IMG/VR virus record: IMGVR_UViG_3300025674_000106 | Location: 1-40,791 of that record | Direction: 5' to 3' (one strand) | Source: a virus | Length of the DNA: 40,791 nucleotides | Part shown: piece after piece, positions 25,694 to 40,151 of the stretch | Layout: every line of letters starts with the position of its first letter | How positions within the stretch are numbered: position 1 is the first letter of the stretch | Translations under genes and position numbers: made by a program | The notes under the pieces: model-generated | The model's input: the letters and a program-made list of their open reading frames with translations, nothing else | What the model was told of the DNA's origin: nothing | Databases searched by the model: none

Positions 25694-26494
25694 ATGATAT
25701 CATTAATACAACTATTAAAAGAACAAACTGGTGAACCCAAAGCTGTTATTTTAGCAGGTGCTCCTGGAGCAGGAAAAGGATCCATTTTAAAAGATCTGGA
25801 TCTAGGAGGACTTAAAATACTTAATGTAGATAATATCTTTATTAAAAATCTTAAACAAGCTAATGTTAGTTTAGATTTAAAAAATGCAACACCTGAAGAA
25901 AGAGTTGAACAAGCCAAACAAATGGCGGCAGCTAATAAAGAATTTAAAGGTGAATTGCAAAGTGTAATAGATGGTAAACAATCATTTGTACTAGATGGTA
26001 CTGCAGCCTCATATAAAAAAACTGCTGAGCTAAAACAACAATTAGAAGAAGCAGGATATAAAATAATGATGCTTTATGTTTACACTGATTTAGAACGTTC
26101 TCTAAAGCAAAATGAAAAACGATTTGAAAAATCAGGTGGTGAAGATAGAAGTTTAGCACCTGCCATTGTAATGCGTACCTGGAAAAGTGTAACAGATAAT
26201 ATAGAACCCTATTTTAATCTATTTACACCTAATTTTATAGCTGTAGCTAATACGCTAAAAGGTGATAAAATGGAGGATATAGAAAAAATTATTAAAAAAT
26301 ACCTTACTCCATTTAAACCCACAGGAACTAAACCTAAAACCCCAGCACAACAACAAAAATCAAAGGAACAAAAAGCAAAATTAAACGCTGAAATTCAAGA
26401 TATGCTAGATGAAGAATTTATAGCAGATATTCTGCAATATACAATATCTAAGGAAGAAGCACAAATGAGATTAAAACAATTCCTAAATGGTTAA
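25694..26494 (+). CDS. P-loop kinase, zeta-toxin-like
   Basis: A 266-residue protein. A short N-terminal segment (MISLIQLLKEQTGE) containing LLKE-Q is followed by a Walker A motif GAPGAGKGS (22-30), NVDN (about 45-48), FVLDGTAAS (about 97-105) and LYVYTDLERSLKQNEKR (about 127-143), the order expected for zeta-toxin or polynucleotide-kinase-like enzymes. ELKQQLEEAGYK and VMRTWKSVTDNIEPYFNLF match the same family. The C-terminus (about 215-266) is a Lys/Gln-rich linker plus helix. The substrate is unknown. First gene of a late unit; overlaps the next gene by 8 bases. No antitoxin is nearby. Confidence 0.7.
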   Translation: MISLIQLLKEQTGEPKAVILAGAPGAGKGSILKDLDLGGLKILNVDNIFIKNLKQANVSLDLKNATPEERVEQAKQMAAANKEFKGELQSVIDGKQSFVLDGTAASYKKTAELKQQLEEAGYKIMMLYVYTDLERSLKQNEKRFEKSGGEDRSLAPAIVMRTWKSVTDNIEPYFNLFTPNFIAVANTLKGDKMEDIEKIIKKYLTPFKPTGTKPKTPAQQQKSKEQKAKLNAEIQDMLDEEFIADILQYTISKEEAQMRLKQFLNG

Positions 26495-28856
26495 AATAGG
26501 ATTATATGGAGGTGGGTTTAAACCCCCAACTAGGGGACATTTTGAAGTAGTTCAAAAAATTATAAACGAGTACCCTGATCTAGACATGTTAATAGTTCTA
26601 GTTGGAAAAGGTATACGTGATGGAATTTCCCAAGATGAATCTATATTGATTTGGAATTTATATAAAAAATATCTTCCACTAAAAGTAAGAATTATTCCTG
26701 TTTCATCCCCTGTAGGAGAAATTTATAGTTTATCTAAGGATAATTTAGAAGATGAATTTATTTGGTTTTTAGGTGAAAGGCAGGGTAAAGAAGAAGATGT
26801 TAAGGATATTGAAATTCGTACTAAACATCTTACTAATAAAAAAGAAAATTATCCTAATTTAACTACAGCTGTTATATCTACTAAAGATGCTAATATTAGT
26901 GGAACCCAAGCTAGAAAATATCTTAAAAATCAAGATAAAACAGGATTTTTTAGTTTAATACCTGATTCCCTTTCAAATGAAGAAAAAAATGAGGTGTATA
27001 ATATTTTATCCCCATCTATAGAAGAAGGCAGAAAGAAAAAACGTGACCCTAAAACGGGGACAGGTAAAAAACCTGAAAGATCAGGAAGACGACTATACAC
27101 AGATGAAGATCCTAAGGATACTGTAGGTATTAAATTTAGAACTAAAGAAGATGTAGTAGATACTTTAAATAAAAAATCATTTAAGGCTAAATCTCATGCA
27201 CGTCAATCTCAAATAATTAATTTAATACATCAAAGGGTAAGAGCAGCTTACCAAAATGCTAAAGATCCAGATACTAAAAATAGATTAAAACGTGGTTTAG
27301 ATTACATTACTAATAGAAAGGAAAAATCTAAAGAAAAAACAAAAAGGTTAAGACAACAAAATGAAGGTATAAAGGGATTTACTAAAGGTAATGTAGGTAC
27401 AAGATATAGAGCAATAGAAAAAAGAGGTAATAAATATTATTACAGACAAGATGATCCCTTAGGCGCTGGTATTAAACAGGAATTTGGTCCATTTGATACT
27501 AAAGCTCAAGCTATTAAAAAAATGGAAAAATTCCCTCCCGCTACTAGTTATAGAGATATTACAGATAATATAGATCCTAAATCACAAGAAAAGCATAAAG
27601 GCAAATCTTCACCTTATGGGTCAGCATATAAACCTGTGGATGAAGGAGATACCTATGAAAAAATGGCTGCTAAAGGTAAAAAGTCGGGCGATTTAAAGCA
27701 GGGTACTGTTAGAAAAAGATTAGGTATAAAAAAAGGAGAAAAGGTCCCATTATCTTTAATTAAAAAAGAAATATCACGTTTGAAAAAAATGGATAAAGAT
27801 CCTAAAAAGAAAGGAGCCCAACTAGGAGACAAAAATCAAAAATATTATAAAGCATTACAGTTGGCTAAAACTTTAAAGACAACTACTAACGTTAATGAAA
27901 ATGCCACTTATTCTAATAGTATAGATTATAAACAACAAATTTTAGATCTTACTAAACATATGTTAGAAAAAGGAGAAAAGATTACCCCTTTACCTAAGGT
28001 TATTTTTAAACATGGGGATCAAGAAAATGCCAAAGAATTTTTAGGTAAAACTGCGTATTATGATCCTAATACAATGACTATTGTATTATACACTGAAGGT
28101 AGACATCCAAAAGATATTGTTAGGTCATTTTCTCATGAAATGATCCATCACCAACAAAATTTAGAAGGTAAATTAAATAATATTAATACTACTAATACTT
28201 TAGAAGATGATTATCTTGAGGATATAGAAAAAGAAGCCTATTTAGATGGTAATATTAATTTTAGAAATTACACAGATAGTCAATTACACGAAAAGAAAAA
28301 AGTAAAAGATCCTTTTGGAATATCTGCCTTTGCTTATGAATTAGCTCGTGGTTTAGAAGAACAAGAAGAAAAAATAGAAACTAAATACACTATTTACTCA
28401 GATATGGATGGTGTATTAACTGATTTTGATAAAAGATTTAAAAAGTTTTCTAAAGGTATTGCACCTAAAGATTATGAAAATAAATTTGGATTAAAAAAGT
28501 TTTGGAATTTAGTTGATAATATTGGGGGGTTAGATTTTTGGGCCAATATGGATTGGATGTCTGATGGTAAAGAATATTGGAATTACATTTCAAAATATAA
28601 CCCTATCATTCTAACTGCCCCATCAATGAACCCAGTTTCAAGATTAGGTAAAAGACAATGGAGAGATGGTAATTTACCAGGTGTCAAAATGAAAATGGCT
28701 TCCGCAAGAAACAAACCTAATTATTCCAAAAGAAATTCTATTTTAATTGATGATAGAAAGGATACTATAGATGCATGGAACGCAGCAGGTGGTATAGGTA
28801 TACTTCATACATCTGCTGCTAGTACGATTGAAAAATTAAAAGAACTTGGTTTATGA
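26487..28856 (+). CDS. Multidomain protein: nucleotidyltransferase, basic modules, metallopeptidase, HAD phosphatase
   Basis: A 789-residue chain of at least five modules. Residues 1-175 are a NMNAT/cytidylyltransferase-like domain with GGGFKPPTRGH (8-18) and ISGTQAR (137-143). Residues 185-290 are very basic; 304-350 hold a small repeat-like module (RYRAIEKRGNKYYYRQ, EFGPFDTKAQAIKKM); 388-465 another helical basic module. Residues 473-600 hold a zinc-peptidase motif HEMIHHQQ (550-557) with E583 downstream. Residues 632-789 are a HAD phosphatase: DMDGVLTDFD (639-648), T710, and LIDDRKDTIDAW (753-764), like 5'-nucleotidases. Module borders carry IEEG (178), NEG (292), VDEG (384), VNEN (469) and LEEQ (623), resembling prohead-protease sites. 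I infer a cleaved, packaged polyprotein. Confidence 0.75.
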   Translation: MVKIGLYGGGFKPPTRGHFEVVQKIINEYPDLDMLIVLVGKGIRDGISQDESILIWNLYKKYLPLKVRIIPVSSPVGEIYSLSKDNLEDEFIWFLGERQGKEEDVKDIEIRTKHLTNKKENYPNLTTAVISTKDANISGTQARKYLKNQDKTGFFSLIPDSLSNEEKNEVYNILSPSIEEGRKKKRDPKTGTGKKPERSGRRLYTDEDPKDTVGIKFRTKEDVVDTLNKKSFKAKSHARQSQIINLIHQRVRAAYQNAKDPDTKNRLKRGLDYITNRKEKSKEKTKRLRQQNEGIKGFTKGNVGTRYRAIEKRGNKYYYRQDDPLGAGIKQEFGPFDTKAQAIKKMEKFPPATSYRDITDNIDPKSQEKHKGKSSPYGSAYKPVDEGDTYEKMAAKGKKSGDLKQGTVRKRLGIKKGEKVPLSLIKKEISRLKKMDKDPKKKGAQLGDKNQKYYKALQLAKTLKTTTNVNENATYSNSIDYKQQILDLTKHMLEKGEKITPLPKVIFKHGDQENAKEFLGKTAYYDPNTMTIVLYTEGRHPKDIVRSFSHEMIHHQQNLEGKLNNINTTNTLEDDYLEDIEKEAYLDGNINFRNYTDSQLHEKKKVKDPFGISAFAYELARGLEEQEEKIETKYTIYSDMDGVLTDFDKRFKKFSKGIAPKDYENKFGLKKFWNLVDNIGGLDFWANMDWMSDGKEYWNYISKYNPIILTAPSMNPVSRLGKRQWRDGNLPGVKMKMASARNKPNYSKRNSILIDDRKDTIDAWNAAGGIGILHTSAASTIEKLKELGL

Positions 28857-34063: not shown

Positions 34064-34116
34064 GCCTGATTCATAGCCAGGCGCCTTTTAGGGTCAAAAT
34101 TATGCAGCTGTGGCGC
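34064..34116 (+). other. Alternative stems ahead of the terminator (possible attenuator)
   Basis: GCCTG (34064-34068) can pair with CAGGC (34078-34082), and GCGCC (34081-34085) can pair with GGCGC (34112-34116), which is also the left arm of the terminator. These stems exclude one another, as in attenuators. They are short (5 bp) against an 11-bp terminator stem, so the effect would need a protein or ribosome. Confidence 0.3.
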
Positions 34117-34144
34117 ATCCTTTTTGGATAGCGCCACTTTTTTT
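34110..34144 (+). terminator. Strong Rho-independent terminator
   Basis: GTGGCGC-ATCC (34110-34120) pairs with GGAT-(A)-GCGCCAC (34126-34137), an 11-bp stem with one bulged A and a T5 loop, followed by seven T. It closes the 29.4-34.05 kb gene group. Confidence 0.9.
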
Positions 34145-34154
34145 CGTATATTTA
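34123..34154 (+). promoter_or_regulatory. Candidate host-type (Bacteroidota) promoter for the FAD gene
   Basis: TTTG (34123-34126), exactly 20 bases, then TATATTTA (34147-34154). This fits the Bacteroidota pattern TTTG, 19-21 bases, TAnnTTTG except for the last base. The -33 element lies in the loop of the terminator, so the two signals are nested. The gene starts at 34168. Confidence 0.5.
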
Positions 34155-34167
34155 AAAAAAAGAATTA

Positions 34168-35493
34168 ATGGATAAAAAAATAGTAATTGTAGGAGCCGGA
34201 GTTGCAGGTGTAAATGCAGCTACAAAATTAGTAGATAATGGTTATCCTGGAAGTAATATTACTATAATTGATATGGGTAAATCACCTTATGAAAGAAAAC
34301 CTGAGGAAGTAATGACAGGGTTTTTAGGAGCAGGTGGTTGGAGTGATGGTAAACTTACTTACCATACTTCCATTGGAGGACATATGTCAAAATATTGTGG
34401 TGAGGAAAAAGCAATGGAATTATTTGACCAAGTAATTACTAACTTCAAACGATTCCACCCTAACCCAGAAGAAGTACAATGTTCAGATCCACAGGCAGAA
34501 CCTGATTTTATTAAACCATATTTTGGTTTACGATTATTCCCAGTATGGCACGTTGGTACAGATTATCTACATGAAATTGGAAAAAATTGGTATGATTATT
34601 TAGTATCTAAAGGTGTTAATTTCGAATGGGAAACTAAAGTTGTATCAATTGATTTTAAAGAACAATTTTTTGAGGCACTTGATGTTTATCAACTTGACCA
34701 ACCTTATGCTAATACACGAGTTGGTAAATACGATCGTTTAATATTTGGTGTAGGTAAATCAGGTATTGATTTTGGTAAACAATTAGCAGAAGATTATTCC
34801 TTTCCTACTGAATCTAAACCTGTACAAATAGGAGTACGTTTTGAGGCCCCACAAAAACATTTTCAAAAATTAATTGATATTTCATATGACTTTAAATTAT
34901 ATAGAAAATTTGAAGATAAAGGAGTATCATTACGTTCATTCTGCACTAACAATAATGCTGCTTTTGTTGCTGTAGAAGAAACATATGGGGATCATTCATA
35001 TAATGGACATGCTAAAAAAGATGAAGCATATCGTAATGATATGACTAATTTTGGTATTTTAATGGAAATCCGAGGTATAGATAATCCTTTTGAATGGTCA
35101 AGAGAATTAGTAGAAAAAGTTCAAGCTCACGGAACAGGATTATATTATAGCCCGTCTCGTAAACCATCAACAACTTCAGAAGGTGATAATGTAAGTGCAC
35201 ACCAAATAGATTGGATGGGATTACAAGTAGTAGCTGAACATTTTCAAGGTTATTTTGAATACATTTCAGATTTTATTGATGATATGAAAAAAGTATTTCC
35301 AACACTTGAAGATGATTGGGGTATTTATATTCCTGAAGTAAAATATCTATCACCAGAACCTAAAGTAGATTATAGCAATTTAACATTAGATCAATTCGAA
35401 AATGTACATTTTGCTGGAGATGCCCTATCTGCAAGGGGTATTACAGTTTCAGGAGCACAAGGTATTTATATAGCAGAATCATTATTAAATTAA
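34168..35493 (+). CDS. FAD-dependent oxidoreductase (COG2509-like)
   Basis: A 441-residue flavoprotein. A dinucleotide-binding motif V-G-A-G-V-A-G (8-14) sits at the N-terminus, GAGGWSDGKLTYH (about 55-67) is a second conserved FAD-contact block, and FAGDALSARGITVSGAQGIY (about 414-433) is the typical C-terminal FAD segment of the COG2509-like 'FAD-dependent dehydrogenases'. The natural substrate of this family is not firmly known. A complete, apparently intact metabolic-type enzyme is unusual in a T4-like phage. It has its own host-type promoter, follows a strong terminator, and uses CGN for 9 of 13 arginines, unlike late genes. Probably an auxiliary metabolic gene acquired from a bacterium. 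Confidence 0.85.
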   Translation: MDKKIVIVGAGVAGVNAATKLVDNGYPGSNITIIDMGKSPYERKPEEVMTGFLGAGGWSDGKLTYHTSIGGHMSKYCGEEKAMELFDQVITNFKRFHPNPEEVQCSDPQAEPDFIKPYFGLRLFPVWHVGTDYLHEIGKNWYDYLVSKGVNFEWETKVVSIDFKEQFFEALDVYQLDQPYANTRVGKYDRLIFGVGKSGIDFGKQLAEDYSFPTESKPVQIGVRFEAPQKHFQKLIDISYDFKLYRKFEDKGVSLRSFCTNNNAAFVAVEETYGDHSYNGHAKKDEAYRNDMTNFGILMEIRGIDNPFEWSRELVEKVQAHGTGLYYSPSRKPSTTSEGDNVSAHQIDWMGLQVVAEHFQGYFEYISDFIDDMKKVFPTLEDDWGIYIPEVKYLSPEPKVDYSNLTLDQFENVHFAGDALSARGITVSGAQGIYIAESLLN

Positions 35494-35497
35494 AATT

Positions 35498-35767
35498 ATG
35501 TCAGACAAAAAATTTGAGTACAAAACCATTACATCTAACGGTCAAAGGATGTATTTAGCTAAAGGACCTAAAGATAAAGCTTTTAAGTTTCATAGATATG
35601 ATGGTCCTGCTATTGAACCTATTGAAAGACGTGGAGGAGCAAGAAAAGCTTATTATCTTTATGGTATAGAATATGGGTTTGAGGAATATCAAGAGTTAAT
35701 GAGGGAAAGAAAAGGTGTTCCTTTCCATAAAACAGCTTTAGGTAAACAATCTGGTGCAAGAACATAA
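35498..35767 (+). CDS. Small protein with an 'HRxDGPA' motif
   Basis: An 89-residue basic protein. The centre FHRYDGPAIEP (about 31-41) followed by KAYYLYGIEYGFEEYQEL (about 50-67) is a motif I have seen in short phage and large-virus proteins (HR-x-DGPA ... W/Y-Y-x-x-G), of unknown role. It follows the FAD gene by 4 bases with an aaaattATG leader and probably shares its transcript. Confidence 0.6.
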   Translation: MSDKKFEYKTITSNGQRMYLAKGPKDKAFKFHRYDGPAIEPIERRGGARKAYYLYGIEYGFEEYQELMRERKGVPFHKTALGKQSGART

Positions 35768-35775
35768 ATTATAGT

Positions 35776-36306
35776 ATGAAAATTGGATTATGTGGTACAA
35801 TGTCTGTAGGTAAAACTACATTAGTTAAGGCATTAGAATATGAAGTTGAATTTATTGACTATAAATTTACTACTGAACGATCTAAATACTTAAGAGATTT
35901 AGGTATTCCATTAAATACTGATTCTACAGTAAAGGGTCAATCTATATTTTTAGCGGAGAGAGCTAGTGAGTTATTAAATGAAAATATCATTACAGACAGA
36001 ACTATTATTGATGTAATGGCATTTGCTAAATGTGCGGATTCAATTAGTGAAGATGATGCTAAGAAATTTTGTGATTTTGCTTCTACTATGTTAGGGGATT
36101 ATGATCATATTTTTTATGTTTCTACTGAAGGTACTATTATAGAGGATAATGGTGTTAGGACTATAGATGAAGAGTATAGAGAAAAAATAGATAATACTAT
36201 TAGAGAATTATTATTTGAATATAGGGATCAAATAAAAGATTTTACTACTATCAGTGGCACTACAGAACAACGTTTAAAACAAATAAATGAGGTATTATTT
36301 CCTTAA
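35776..36306 (+). CDS. P-loop kinase, AAA_28/NadR-like
   Basis: A 176-residue protein with a Walker A motif GTMSVGKT (7-14), TTERSKYLRDLG (about 31-42), a DR motif in ITDRTIIDVMAFA (about 72-84) and FYVSTEGT (about 113-120). This order fits the AAA_28 group, which includes the ribosylnicotinamide-kinase part of NadR, and other deoxynucleoside-kinase-like enzymes. The substrate cannot be fixed. If it phosphorylates nicotinamide riboside, it would pair with the NMNAT-like domain encoded at 26.5 kb. It probably shares a transcript with the FAD gene and ends where the next late element begins. Confidence 0.7.
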   Translation: MKIGLCGTMSVGKTTLVKALEYEVEFIDYKFTTERSKYLRDLGIPLNTDSTVKGQSIFLAERASELLNENIITDRTIIDVMAFAKCADSISEDDAKKFCDFASTMLGDYDHIFYVSTEGTIIEDNGVRTIDEEYREKIDNTIRELLFEYRDQIKDFTTISGTTEQRLKQINEVLFP

Positions 36307-36327: not shown

Positions 36328-36687
36328 ATGGGACTTAATAAACCTAAACTAAAGGAAATTATAAAAAAAGAGATAGTAGAAATTCTTACTGAGGCCGATC
36401 CCGAAGATATTAAGGCTCAACAGGATTTAAATAAAGAATTAGAAACTACTAAAAGTTTAGCTGATGAAGTGGGAGATGCTTTAAGTGAACAAGATGATGA
36501 ACCCACTGCTTCTGATTTAAAAAGTGATTCTGTGGCTTCATTAGCTAGAGAATTAGGTAAAATTACCCGTGAAATGAAAACAGTAGTAAATCAGTGGAAA
36601 AAATCAGAAGGTGAAGAAAAAGAAGATTTACTTAAAAGATTAAAAGAGCTAACCGCTATGAAGAAAGAGGTTGAGGCTCTCCTCTAA
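36328..36687 (+). CDS. Small helical protein with the recurrent N-terminal helix motif
   Basis: A 119-residue, highly charged helical protein. The N-terminus KPKLKEIIKKEIVEILTEAD (5-24) is the clearest example of the recurrent helix and ends at ILTE-A, which matches the [L/I]xE-A preference of the T4 prohead protease. The remainder (ARELGKITREMKTVVNQWKK) is coiled-coil-like. Located directly before the terminase, where a small terminase or head-core protein might be expected, but neither can be shown. Confidence 0.65.
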   Translation: MGLNKPKLKEIIKKEIVEILTEADPEDIKAQQDLNKELETTKSLADEVGDALSEQDDEPTASDLKSDSVASLARELGKITREMKTVVNQWKKSEGEEKEDLLKRLKELTAMKKEVEALL

Positions 36688-36689
36688 TT

Positions 36690-38258
36690 ATGTCACAGGA
36701 TCTAAAAAAAATAATTCGTCAGGAATACATTAAATGTGCAACTGATCCTGTACATTTTATGAAAAAATACTGTTTTATTCAACACCCCCAAAGAGGTAAA
36801 ATATTATTTACTTTATACCCTTTTCAAGAAAAAGTATTGCAATTGTTTAAGGACAATCCTTATTCATTAATACTTAAATCTAGACAGTTAGGTATTTCTA
36901 CTTTAACTGCTGGATATTCTCTTTGGTTAATGTTATTCCATGAGGGGAAAAATGTATTATGTGTAGCTACTAAGCAAGAAACAGCCAAAAATCTAGTAAC
37001 TAAGGTTAAATTTATGTATGATAATTTACCTTCCTGGTTACAAATTTCAACTGAAGAAAACAATAAATTAACATTAAGATTAACTAACGGCTCCCAGATA
37101 AAAGCAACTTCAGCTGCTTCAGATGCTGGTAGATCAGAAGCTGTATCTATGTTAGTAGTTGATGAAGCAGCATTTATTGAAGGTATAGATAACATATGGG
37201 CCTCAGCTCAACAAACATTATCAACTGGAGGGGGTGCTATCGTACTTTCCACACCTAATGGAACTGGTAATTGGTTCCATAAAATGTGGACTAAAGCCGA
37301 AGCTAAAGAAAATGAATTTTTGCCTATTAGACTACCTTGGATGGTTCATCCCGAAAGAGACCAATCATGGAGAGATAGACAGGATGATTTATTAGGTGAC
37401 CCTCGTATTGCAGCTCAAGAATGTGATTGTGACTTTAATACATCAGGTGATGTTGTATTTTATAATGAATGGATTGAATTCATAAAAGAAACTACAATTA
37501 AGGATCCTGTTGAGAGAAGAGGTGTCGATCAAAATTTATGGATATGGGAATCCGCAGATTACGCCAGGGAATATCTAATTACTGCTGATATTGCCAGGGG
37601 TGATGGAAAAGATTTTTCTACCGCACATATAATAGATATTGAAACAAATACCCAAGTAGCAGAATTTAAGGGTCAATTGCCTCCTAAAGAATTTGGTTAT
37701 TTCTTAGTTGGTTTAGCTGCTGAATATAATAATGCAATGTTATGTCCTGAGAATGCTAATATAGGATGGGCTACTATTGATGCTATACGAGAAAGAGGAT
37801 ACAGAAATTTATATCATTCCCCTAAATCTGATAAACTGACTGCAGAATCATATCTTCAGACCTATGAAGGTAACTCTGAAATGGTTCCTGGTTTTACTAT
37901 GTCAATGAGGACTAGACCTTTAATTATTAATAAATTTAGGGAATTTGTAGGAGATAGAAGTGTGACAATTCGTTCTAAAAGGCTTTTAGAGGAAATGAGA
38001 GTATTTATATGGAAAAATGGTAGACCAGAAGCTCAAGTAGGATATAATGATGATTTAATTATGGCTTTTGGGATTGCTATGTTTTTAAGAGATACTTCAC
38101 TTAAATTCCAACAAGAATCACTTGATAGAGCTAAAGCTGCTCTTGGTAGTGTTAGAAAAAATGACTATTATACCCCAGGTGTAGTAAGTAATAGAACAAA
38201 AAACCCATATACTATGGAAATAGATGGGAAAAATGAAAATATAACTTGGCTTTTATAA
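36690..38258 (+). CDS. 17: Terminase large subunit, T4 gp17-like
   Basis: A 522-residue packaging ATPase-nuclease (T4 gp17 has 610). The ATPase half has KSRQLGIST (63-71) as Walker A, in which the usual lysine before Ser/Thr is Ile and a lysine stands at the start as in lambda gpA, and Walker B MLVVDEA (154-160, D158/E159). A motif III-like STPNGTGNW lies near 187-195. The nuclease half has D300 in TADIARGDGKD, E354 in CPENAN and D454/D455 in GYNDDLIMAF. It cuts concatemers and drives DNA into proheads through the portal, encoded next. Confidence 0.95.
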   Translation: MSQDLKKIIRQEYIKCATDPVHFMKKYCFIQHPQRGKILFTLYPFQEKVLQLFKDNPYSLILKSRQLGISTLTAGYSLWLMLFHEGKNVLCVATKQETAKNLVTKVKFMYDNLPSWLQISTEENNKLTLRLTNGSQIKATSAASDAGRSEAVSMLVVDEAAFIEGIDNIWASAQQTLSTGGGAIVLSTPNGTGNWFHKMWTKAEAKENEFLPIRLPWMVHPERDQSWRDRQDDLLGDPRIAAQECDCDFNTSGDVVFYNEWIEFIKETTIKDPVERRGVDQNLWIWESADYAREYLITADIARGDGKDFSTAHIIDIETNTQVAEFKGQLPPKEFGYFLVGLAAEYNNAMLCPENANIGWATIDAIRERGYRNLYHSPKSDKLTAESYLQTYEGNSEMVPGFTMSMRTRPLIINKFREFVGDRSVTIRSKRLLEEMRVFIWKNGRPEAQVGYNDDLIMAFGIAMFLRDTSLKFQQESLDRAKAALGSVRKNDYYTPGVVSNRTKNPYTMEIDGKNENITWLL

Positions 38259-38267
38259 AATTTAATT

Positions 38268-40151
38268 ATGGCTGATAAAGGATTATTTAGTAGACTGCAA
38301 AGATTATTCTCAACTGATGTTGTTATAAGAAATACAGGGAATAACCAATTAAAAACTATAGATACTAGACATATACAGGTATCTGGTAATATAGAAACTA
38401 ATTCACTTATTGATAGATTTAATAGAATTTATACTAATAGTATATCATCTTTATATGGTCAACAAGTGTCTTATAACTATAAAACTTTAAGACCATCTTT
38501 ATATGCTGAATATGATGCTATGGATACTGATGCTATCATAGCTTCTGCCTTGGATATTATTTCGGATGAAAGTACACTTAAAAATGATTTAGGAGAAGTA
38601 CTACAAATTAAATCACCAGATGAAAATATTCAAAAGATACTTTATAATCTTTTTTATGATGTGATTAACATAGAATTCAATTTATGGCCTTGGATTCGTA
38701 ATATGTGTAAGTATGGGGATTTCTTTTTAAAATTGGAAATAGCTGAAGATTTTGGAGTTTATAATGTTATCCCTTATTCTGCTTTTAACATAGAAAGAAT
38801 AGAATACTCAGACCCAGAAAACCCAGCTAAAGTAATGTTTAAGTTTGATCCGGACGGGATAGTATCTGATTCCTATGGCTATACAACTGTTCCTAACCAA
38901 AATAAGGACGCAAGAGCTATTTATTTTGATAATTACGAAGTTGCACACTTTAGATTACTTACAGACGTTAATTTTCTCCCCTATGGTAGAAGTTACATAG
39001 AACCAGCTAGAAAATTATTTAAGCAATATACTTTAATGGAGGATGCTATGTTAATTCATAGAATAGTAAGAGCTCCAGAAAAACGTATATTTTATTTAAA
39101 TATAGGTTCTATTCCTCCCAATGAAATTGAGGCGTTTATGGAGAAAACTATTTCTAAATTAAAAAGAACTCCATATGTTGACCCACAAACTGGTGATTAT
39201 AATTTAAAATATAATCTTCAAAATTCTTTAGAGGATTTTTATATCCCTGTAAGAGGCAATGATTCAGCTACTAAAATAGAAACTACTCCCGGACTACAAT
39301 ATGATGGGATTACTGATGTTATTTATTTAAGAGATAAATTATTTGCAGCCCTAAAAGTACCTAAGGCCTTTATGGGGTATGATGAAAATCTAGAGGGTAA
39401 AGCTACTTTAGCGGCACAAGATATTAGATTTGCTAGAACAATTGAAAGAATACAAAGAATTATTACATCTGAGTTATATAAAATTGCCATGGTTCATCTC
39501 TATTCACAAGGTTATACTGGTGAGCAATTAGCTAATTTTGAATTATCATTGACTAACCCATCCATTATATATGATCAAGAAAGGATTGCGTTGTTAACGG
39601 AAAAAACAGCACTAGCGAATGAATTAATTAATAATGGATTATTGCCTACTGATTGGGTGTATGAAAATATCTTCCATTTATCCGAAGATCAATATGACGA
39701 ATATAGAGAATTAATTTTACAGGATAAAAAACGTAAATTTAGACAAAACCAGATGGAAAATGAAGGTAATGATCCTATGGAATCTGGAAAGTCTTATGGT
39801 ACACCCCACGATCTAGCTTCATTGTATGGTAAAGGTAGAACATATTCTGATCCTAATAATTTGCCTGATGGGTATAATGAAAATGAACCCTTAGGTAGAC
39901 CTCAAGAAAAAGTTACTAATCGAAATACTCAAGATGATAACTTTGGTAAGGATAGATTAGGAGTAAAAAGAATGAAAGACACAGATAAGAATGAGGGATC
40001 TAGTTCTGCTTTATCTTTAGAAGGTAGGTATTATATTTCTAAATACTCAGATATGCTAAAAAATATTCCTTCTTCTAATAAGAAACGTATTATATTTGAG
40101 GATGATAAATCCGGAGAATCTTTATTAGATGAATCAAATATTAAGGACTAG
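38268..40151 (+). CDS. 20: Portal vertex protein gp20
   Basis: A 627-residue protein (T4 gp20 has 524). The N-terminal part has SLYAEYDAMDTDAIIASALD (about 83-102) and the middle has NLWPWIRNMCKYGDFFLKLE, typical of gp20, followed by KRIFYLNIGSIPPNEIEAFM and YLRDKLFAALKVPKAFMGYDE. The portal is a dodecamer at one head vertex through which DNA passes. The last 120 residues form an Asn/Gly/Pro/Lys-rich extension absent from T4. It follows the terminase directly; in T4 the tail sheath and tube genes stand between the two. Confidence 0.95.
   Translation: MADKGLFSRLQRLFSTDVVIRNTGNNQLKTIDTRHIQVSGNIETNSLIDRFNRIYTNSISSLYGQQVSYNYKTLRPSLYAEYDAMDTDAIIASALDIISDESTLKNDLGEVLQIKSPDENIQKILYNLFYDVINIEFNLWPWIRNMCKYGDFFLKLEIAEDFGVYNVIPYSAFNIERIEYSDPENPAKVMFKFDPDGIVSDSYGYTTVPNQNKDARAIYFDNYEVAHFRLLTDVNFLPYGRSYIEPARKLFKQYTLMEDAMLIHRIVRAPEKRIFYLNIGSIPPNEIEAFMEKTISKLKRTPYVDPQTGDYNLKYNLQNSLEDFYIPVRGNDSATKIETTPGLQYDGITDVIYLRDKLFAALKVPKAFMGYDENLEGKATLAAQDIRFARTIERIQRIITSELYKIAMVHLYSQGYTGEQLANFELSLTNPSIIYDQERIALLTEKTALANELINNGLLPTDWVYENIFHLSEDQYDEYRELILQDKKRKFRQNQMENEGNDPMESGKSYGTPHDLASLYGKGRTYSDPNNLPDGYNENEPLGRPQEKVTNRNTQDDNFGKDRLGVKRMKDTDKNEGSSSALSLEGRYYISKYSDMLKNIPSSNKKRIIFEDDKSGESLLDESNIKD

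Follow-up and report, generated by a model that had tools for sequence, protein, structure and literature searches.

A COG2509-type flavoprotein that a large marine clade of T4-like phages encodes at a fixed place beside the packaging genes

Flavoproteins of the COG2509/VP0956 type form a wider family that is cellular (bacteria and archaea) and includes VP0956 of Vibrio parahaemolyticus (PDB 3nlc), while in cultured phages they are represented by the “NAD(FAD)-utilizing dehydrogenases” (PHROG 12409) of Campylobacter Fletchervirus, such as gp008 of phage NCTC12673. In the sources searched we found no substrate for any COG2509-type family member, the neighborhoods of bacterial homologues yielded no recurrent partner gene, and literature searches returned no paper on COG2509 in phages. 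Campylobacter phages are also of interest for their DNA—a passage of PMC8713573 that cites Crippen 2019 describes replacement of guanosine by deoxyinosine or deazaguanosine in two genera. Here, we describe a homologue (the FAD gene, encoding the FAD protein) in a viral DNA fragment of 40,791 bases, hereafter the window, whose nearest isolate is Flavobacterium phage immuto (Immutovirus).

The open reading frame of the FAD gene begins with ATG and contains no internal stop, with the dinucleotide-binding motif VGAGVAG at residues 8-14 and the C-terminal block FAGDALSARG at residues 415-424, bearing out an earlier sequence-only reading that had taken it for an intact, full-length flavoprotein. Ratios of dN/dS against relatives are 0.04-0.27, so the gene is under constraint, and we regard its product as a real, intact, constrained enzyme encoded by a core phage gene. 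Close alleles of the protein diverge in two stretches (approximately residues 145-200 and 300-375); in the comparison of the window with the allele of contig L009, these are variable patches at 34600-34770 and 35065-35290, the remainder being 85-98% identical at the DNA level, and they look as if segments had been exchanged or diversified. Some relatives (L028, L094, L093, L110, and L122) carry C-terminal extensions, reaching up to 538 amino acids in total.

Table 1. Predicted features at and around the FAD gene, in window coordinates
Feature	Position	Strand	Basis and details
Intrinsic terminator	34110..34144	+	folding and conservation; hairpin GTGGCGCATCC-TTTTT-GGATaGCGCCAC at 34110-34137, then T7 at 34138-34144
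Bacteroidota (sigma-ABfr)-type promoter, TTG-N20-TATATTTA	34124..34154	+	TTG at 34124-34126, TATATTTA at 34147-34154
FAD-dependent oxidoreductase, COG2509/VP0956-type, phage subfamily, 441 aa	34168..35493	+	homology, fold, fixed residues
89-aa protein directly behind the FAD gene	35498..35767	+	accompanies the FAD gene in 168 loci at a median gap of 15 nt
P-loop nucleotide kinase (AAA_28; PHROG 2107 “thymidylate kinase”)	35776..36306	+	profile matches, synteny
119-aa protein between kinase and terminase	36328..36687	+	recognizable in many relatives
Terminase large subunit (T4 gp17-like)	36690..38258	+	profile matches
Portal protein (T4 gp20-like)	38268..40151	+	profile matches

Family membership was assessed from profiles, fold, and fixed residues. 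An alignment of the phage sequences matched one of 16 cellular homologues over 424 columns (hhalign probability 100, E 2.1e-47), the phage profile matched 3nlc only among PDB chains, and 3nlc was also the best match of the cellular profile. An AlphaFold2 model of the FAD protein (pLDDT 80.7, pTM 0.82) aligned with 3nlc over 379 residues (VIA-align Z 25.0, rmsd 3.8), the next family reaching Z 19.1 over 227 residues. In addition, tblastn linked the protein to gut bacterial members at E 1e-25, and the PHROG 12409 profile matched at E 1.2e-20 (75 bits) in two stretches, the best covering residues 4-274; Pfam and NCBIfam gave N-terminal Rossmann matches only, near or below cut-offs. The name COG2509 itself rests on an annotated BFVD entry (A0A6J5M0P4, 44% identical). 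Across the family, 49 positions are fixed in at least 97% of 173 phage and at least 90% of 95 cellular sequences, including the motifs GxGxxG/A, R43, G51-x2-GxG, SDGK, HxG, RxFC, NGH, ExK, and GD, and nearly all residues fixed in the 95 cellular homologues are kept; the FAD contacts whose loss would, in the sequence-only reading, have argued against activity are largely in place. A Cys-rich insert before SDGK is found in 0 of 173 phage and 81 of 88 cellular sequences (seven cellular members do not have it), and because it is common but not universal among cellular members, it distinguishes a subfamily and is not decisive for COG2509/VP0956 membership. By these computations, the FAD protein is a full-length VP0956/COG2509-type FAD-dependent oxidoreductase of a phage-specific subfamily without the Cys-rich insert. 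It is probably an active flavoenzyme of the COG2509 kind: FAD would probably be bound in a two-dinucleotide-binding fold, and a two-electron oxidation or reduction would probably proceed via the family-fixed residues R256-x-F-C259-x-N, N279-G-H281, and H128-x-G.

A protein scan of IMG/VR found at least 594 stretches encoding a relative of the FAD protein, the best 80 of them at 74-100% identity. That sample, being chosen by protein, is biased towards carriers of the FAD gene, and a second sample of 80 loci was chosen by terminase; the gene is present in all 19 of its loci that extend 4 kb or more upstream, answering positively the earlier question of whether related phages have it at the same site. 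Every one of 179 loci keeps the order FAD gene, kinase, terminase, all on the same strand. Where the genes are complete (72 loci, 2,492 pairs), the FAD protein has a mean pairwise identity of 75.0%, ahead of terminase at 70.0%, portal at 66.1%, and the kinase at 62.9%, although these samples were partly picked by FAD or terminase similarity and the exact ranking is approximate; the safer statement is that conservation of the FAD protein roughly equals or exceeds that of the packaging genes. Its identity holds near 72-76% whether the terminases are 55% or 80% identical, including pairs with terminases of just 55-65% identity. The 89-aa protein behind it matched nothing among 50,697 phage records. 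Contig L127, which has the kinase and more than 1.5 kb upstream, contains no recognizable FAD gene, and none was found in Immutovirus, the nearest isolates (terminase 58% identical); because of these two absences, the gene is not strictly universal or essential. It is nonetheless a core gene with a constant position across a large marine clade of T4-like phages, which probably infect Bacteroidota, and since it keeps that place beside the packaging genes and is at least as conserved as the packaging motor, it probably does something that its carriers need. Elsewhere in the window, an ORF at 26487-28856 fuses NadR-like cytidylyltransferase and 5'-nucleotidase parts that are separate genes in phage immuto.

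The closeness of immuto by terminase, the promoter type, and the absence of an evident Shine-Dalgarno sequence together suggest a Bacteroidota host for the phage of the window. Among eight FAD-carrying contigs of at least 110 kb, six encode DpdA (G002, G003, G554, G555, and G557, with an end fragment in G001) and five encode QueC, and 7-deazaguanine DNA modification seems, from gene content, to be common in the marine carrier group.

Directly upstream of the FAD gene, the sequence-only reading had placed a strong terminator, and this is upheld by comparison: the leader folds at -32.5 kcal/mol over its whole length (z -3.0), and of 97 distinct homologous upstreams, 68 have a terminator-like hairpin with a T run, where shuffles give 0-1. 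CTGTGGC serves as the 5' arm in 70 of the 97, and 57 different pairs of 5' and 3' arms occur among the terminator-like upstreams—that is, the stem persists although its bases vary. The same reading had proposed a host-type promoter, which stands as to the presence of a conserved TTG-N20-TATATT element (spacing exactly 20 nt in 74 of 97 distinct upstreams and 19-20 nt in 75 of 97, against 0.5% of shuffles) and needs correction as to kind. The Bacteroidetes consensus is TTTG at -33 and TAnnTTTG at -7 (PMC6847099; see also PMC9723704). Both TTTG and TATATTTA are present here, the last G of the -7 box being A, and the element resembles a Bacteroidota sigma-ABfr-type promoter. An E. coli sigma-70-type promoter was rejected, as a generic sigma-70 promoter/terminator scan of the window found sites no more frequently than in shuffles. 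That scan omitted the hairpin at 34110, probably owing to its bulge, and the hairpins in the leaders were revealed by per-sequence folding against shuffles; no consensus structure came out of RNAalifold when 14 leaders were aligned without an anchor, probably owing to variation in the lengths of stem and loop. Rfam had no match anywhere in the window, hence no known riboswitch upstream of the gene.

Because the TTG lies in the terminator hairpin, within its loop and 3' arm, terminator and promoter overlap, and the upstream element, newly described here, is predicted to be a composite of a terminator and a Bacteroidota-type promoter. It occurs once in the window, and one was seen in contig G001. 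A second promoter-like TTG-N20-TATATTTA site lies at 1279-1308, upstream of an ORF at 1343, and the TTCGTATATTTA motif, as at that site, recurs through phage immuto. With the composite element directly upstream, the FAD gene is likely the first gene of a packaging/portal transcription unit; the regulation of its own that had been claimed for it is supported in the form of its own predicted transcription start.

The sequence-only reading had also proposed a foreign codon style and a recent acquisition. Nine of the 13 arginine codons of the FAD gene are indeed CGN, compared with approximately 15% in most genes of the window, but arginine is the only amino acid with an odd codon choice: codon usage of the whole gene is not deviant (z +1.0, with several window genes deviating more), and its GC content of 0.324 is ordinary. 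Across 111 relatives, the CGN share of arginine codons is 51% in FAD genes versus 29% in terminases, and because the bias recurs in this way it is an old, long-standing trait that does not point to a recent move of the gene. In an IQ-TREE phylogeny that included 17 cellular sequences, the 12 from marine phages group together (99/98), separately from the cellular ones. The description of COG2509-like enzymes as bacterial is half correct: the family at large is cellular, archaea included, and the gene's own clade is phage. The Campylobacter Fletchervirus copies join the marine group (100/98). At 2.4-4.3 changes per column, the phage branches are long, and the joining could be partly long-branch attraction; separate support for the kinship of the two phage groups comes from residues that they share on the phage side (F225, D241, A265, A282, and I425). 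Gut “Bacteriophage sp.” matches were discarded as phage evidence, since the three that were opened carry ordinary bacterial housekeeping genes. These fecal records (MT836377, MT835490, and MT836034; L164-L166) encode, by eye, HflX, DnaX, RecR, SmpB, thymidylate synthase/DHFR, or glutaminyl-tRNA synthetase, and are most likely bacterial contigs.

A recent transfer from the bacterial host would account for the CGN-rich arginine codons and the gene's own promoter, but we consider it very improbable: the gene sits inside a phage-only clade—the very outcome that the sequence-only reading had named as its refutation—cellular homologues are 24-31% identical among the matches listed, a search of 395 Bacteroidota genomes gave no match at E≤1e-20 (a threshold without a positive control), and the codon bias recurs across relatives. 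A cellular relative closer than about 31% identity may exist. The related proposal of an auxiliary metabolic gene of foreign origin likewise finds no support in a syntenic gene, present in 19 of 19 terminase-selected loci of sufficient length, that evolves no faster than terminase and portal. On the sequence evidence, then, the FAD gene does not appear to be a recent foreign acquisition, and single-codon bias together with an own promoter should be treated with caution as weak evidence of recent gene acquisition in phages.

As to its role, we lean towards a COG2509-type phage core enzyme that heads the packaging block and is made together with the packaging proteins, with a nucleotide or base substrate as a guess. 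The composite element would end the preceding unit and start one running from the FAD gene through the 89-aa protein and the P-loop kinase to terminase and portal, presumably transcribed by the host's Bacteroidota-type RNA polymerase; because the unit it starts is headed by the FAD gene, the enzyme would be co-produced with the packaging proteins. That the enzyme acts on a nucleotide, a deoxynucleotide, or a modified base that serves to make or protect the phage genome, and not on a host metabolite, is a tentative proposal that we hold to be rather doubtful. A less favored but serious reading is an old auxiliary enzyme that alters host redox or cofactor metabolism and has no direct part in DNA chemistry, with which the intact protein, the retention of nearly all family-fixed residues, and the cytidylyltransferase (NadR-like)/5'-nucleotidase functions encoded nearby (26487-28856) would agree. 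Auxiliary genes tend to be patchy, and it would be unusual for one to be present almost everywhere, to stay in tight synteny with terminase, and to evolve no faster than structural genes.

Slightly less probable again is an enzyme of DNA precursors or base modification, acting with the neighboring kinase on a (deoxy)nucleotide or modified guanine. Deoxyinosine is said to belong to the DNA of Fletchervirus, and the report of its replacing guanosine, together with the FAD gene in that genus, hints at a possible link. The kinase is a neighbor in 179 of 179 loci, in Firehammervirus its homologue adjoins DpdA and in Immutovirus it is close by, DpdA/QueC occur in most long carriers, and a dUTPase lies two genes from the Fletchervirus homologue. 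The FAD gene shows no consistent co-occurrence with DpdA, however—Immutovirus and Firehammervirus have DpdA without the FAD gene, and Fletchervirus has the FAD gene without DpdA or QueC—and in Streptomyces phages the kinase occurs with neither a FAD gene nor DpdA detected, leaving the nucleotide/base link circumstantial. More specifically, the phage-specific COG2509 branch and adjacent kinase might make or alter purine DNA precursors or bases (guanine-type) through an undescribed flavin-dependent step, which both marine Bacteroidota T4-like phages and deoxyinosine-containing Fletcherviruses would have retained, an idea that we regard as unlikely in this full form. Still more unlikely is a virion or packaging-associated flavoprotein that enters the head with the DNA, by analogy with the GMC-type oxidoreductases of the mimivirus genomic fiber: the probable position at the head of the terminase/portal unit would fit, and oxidoreductases of that fiber (7ptv and 4z24) are among the fold matches, but they rank lower (Z 16-17) and are of another family, and a protein in such a role would have no need to keep its catalytic residues fixed.

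In widespread uncultured marine phages, a metabolic-looking enzyme is thus as conserved and position-fixed as the packaging machinery. The phage version—enzyme, small protein, and kinase—offers a compact system for finding the function of the COG2509-type family, for which gp008 of Campylobacter phage NCTC12673, a cultured distant cousin, is also suited.

Among known proteins, the FAD protein is most like VP0956, over the full-length fold, and like the cellular COG2509-type dehydrogenases, with which it shares nearly all family-fixed residues, among them the dinucleotide motif and the motifs from SDGK to GD. It differs from these in being 25-31% identical, in the missing insert, and in phage-fixed substitutions (W58, K197, Q220, N262, and G385, among others). 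Flavoproteins of the HI0933/BaiN and aminoacetone-oxidase types (2gqf, 2i0z, 4cnj) have the same FAD-binding fold, but only 220-227 of their residues align (Z ~19), and profile matches are far below curated cut-offs. The Fletchervirus homologues lack the Cys insert like the marine copies, fold like the window protein (TM 0.79-0.82), and fall on the same side of the tree, but they are 24% identical to it and neighbor dUTPase and clamp loader genes, unlike the terminase-side gene of the window. Immutovirus is related by terminase, portal (also 58%), primase, and other orthologous genes, has the capsid and sheath common to long relatives of the window's phage, and repeats a TTG-spacer-CGTATATTTA promoter motif as in the window; it differs in having no FAD gene and in placing the kinase homologue in a DpdA/Que cluster. 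In Firehammervirus, a gene annotated as hypothetical (CP21_069; NC_019507.1 41312-42088, L350) is 44% identical to the annotated DpdA of immuto and adjoins the kinase CP21_068. Finally, four long carrier contigs were compared with Fletchervirus: among the genes that it shares with two or more of them, only the FAD gene is missing from both Immutovirus and Firehammervirus, the others including T4-type structural and replication genes.
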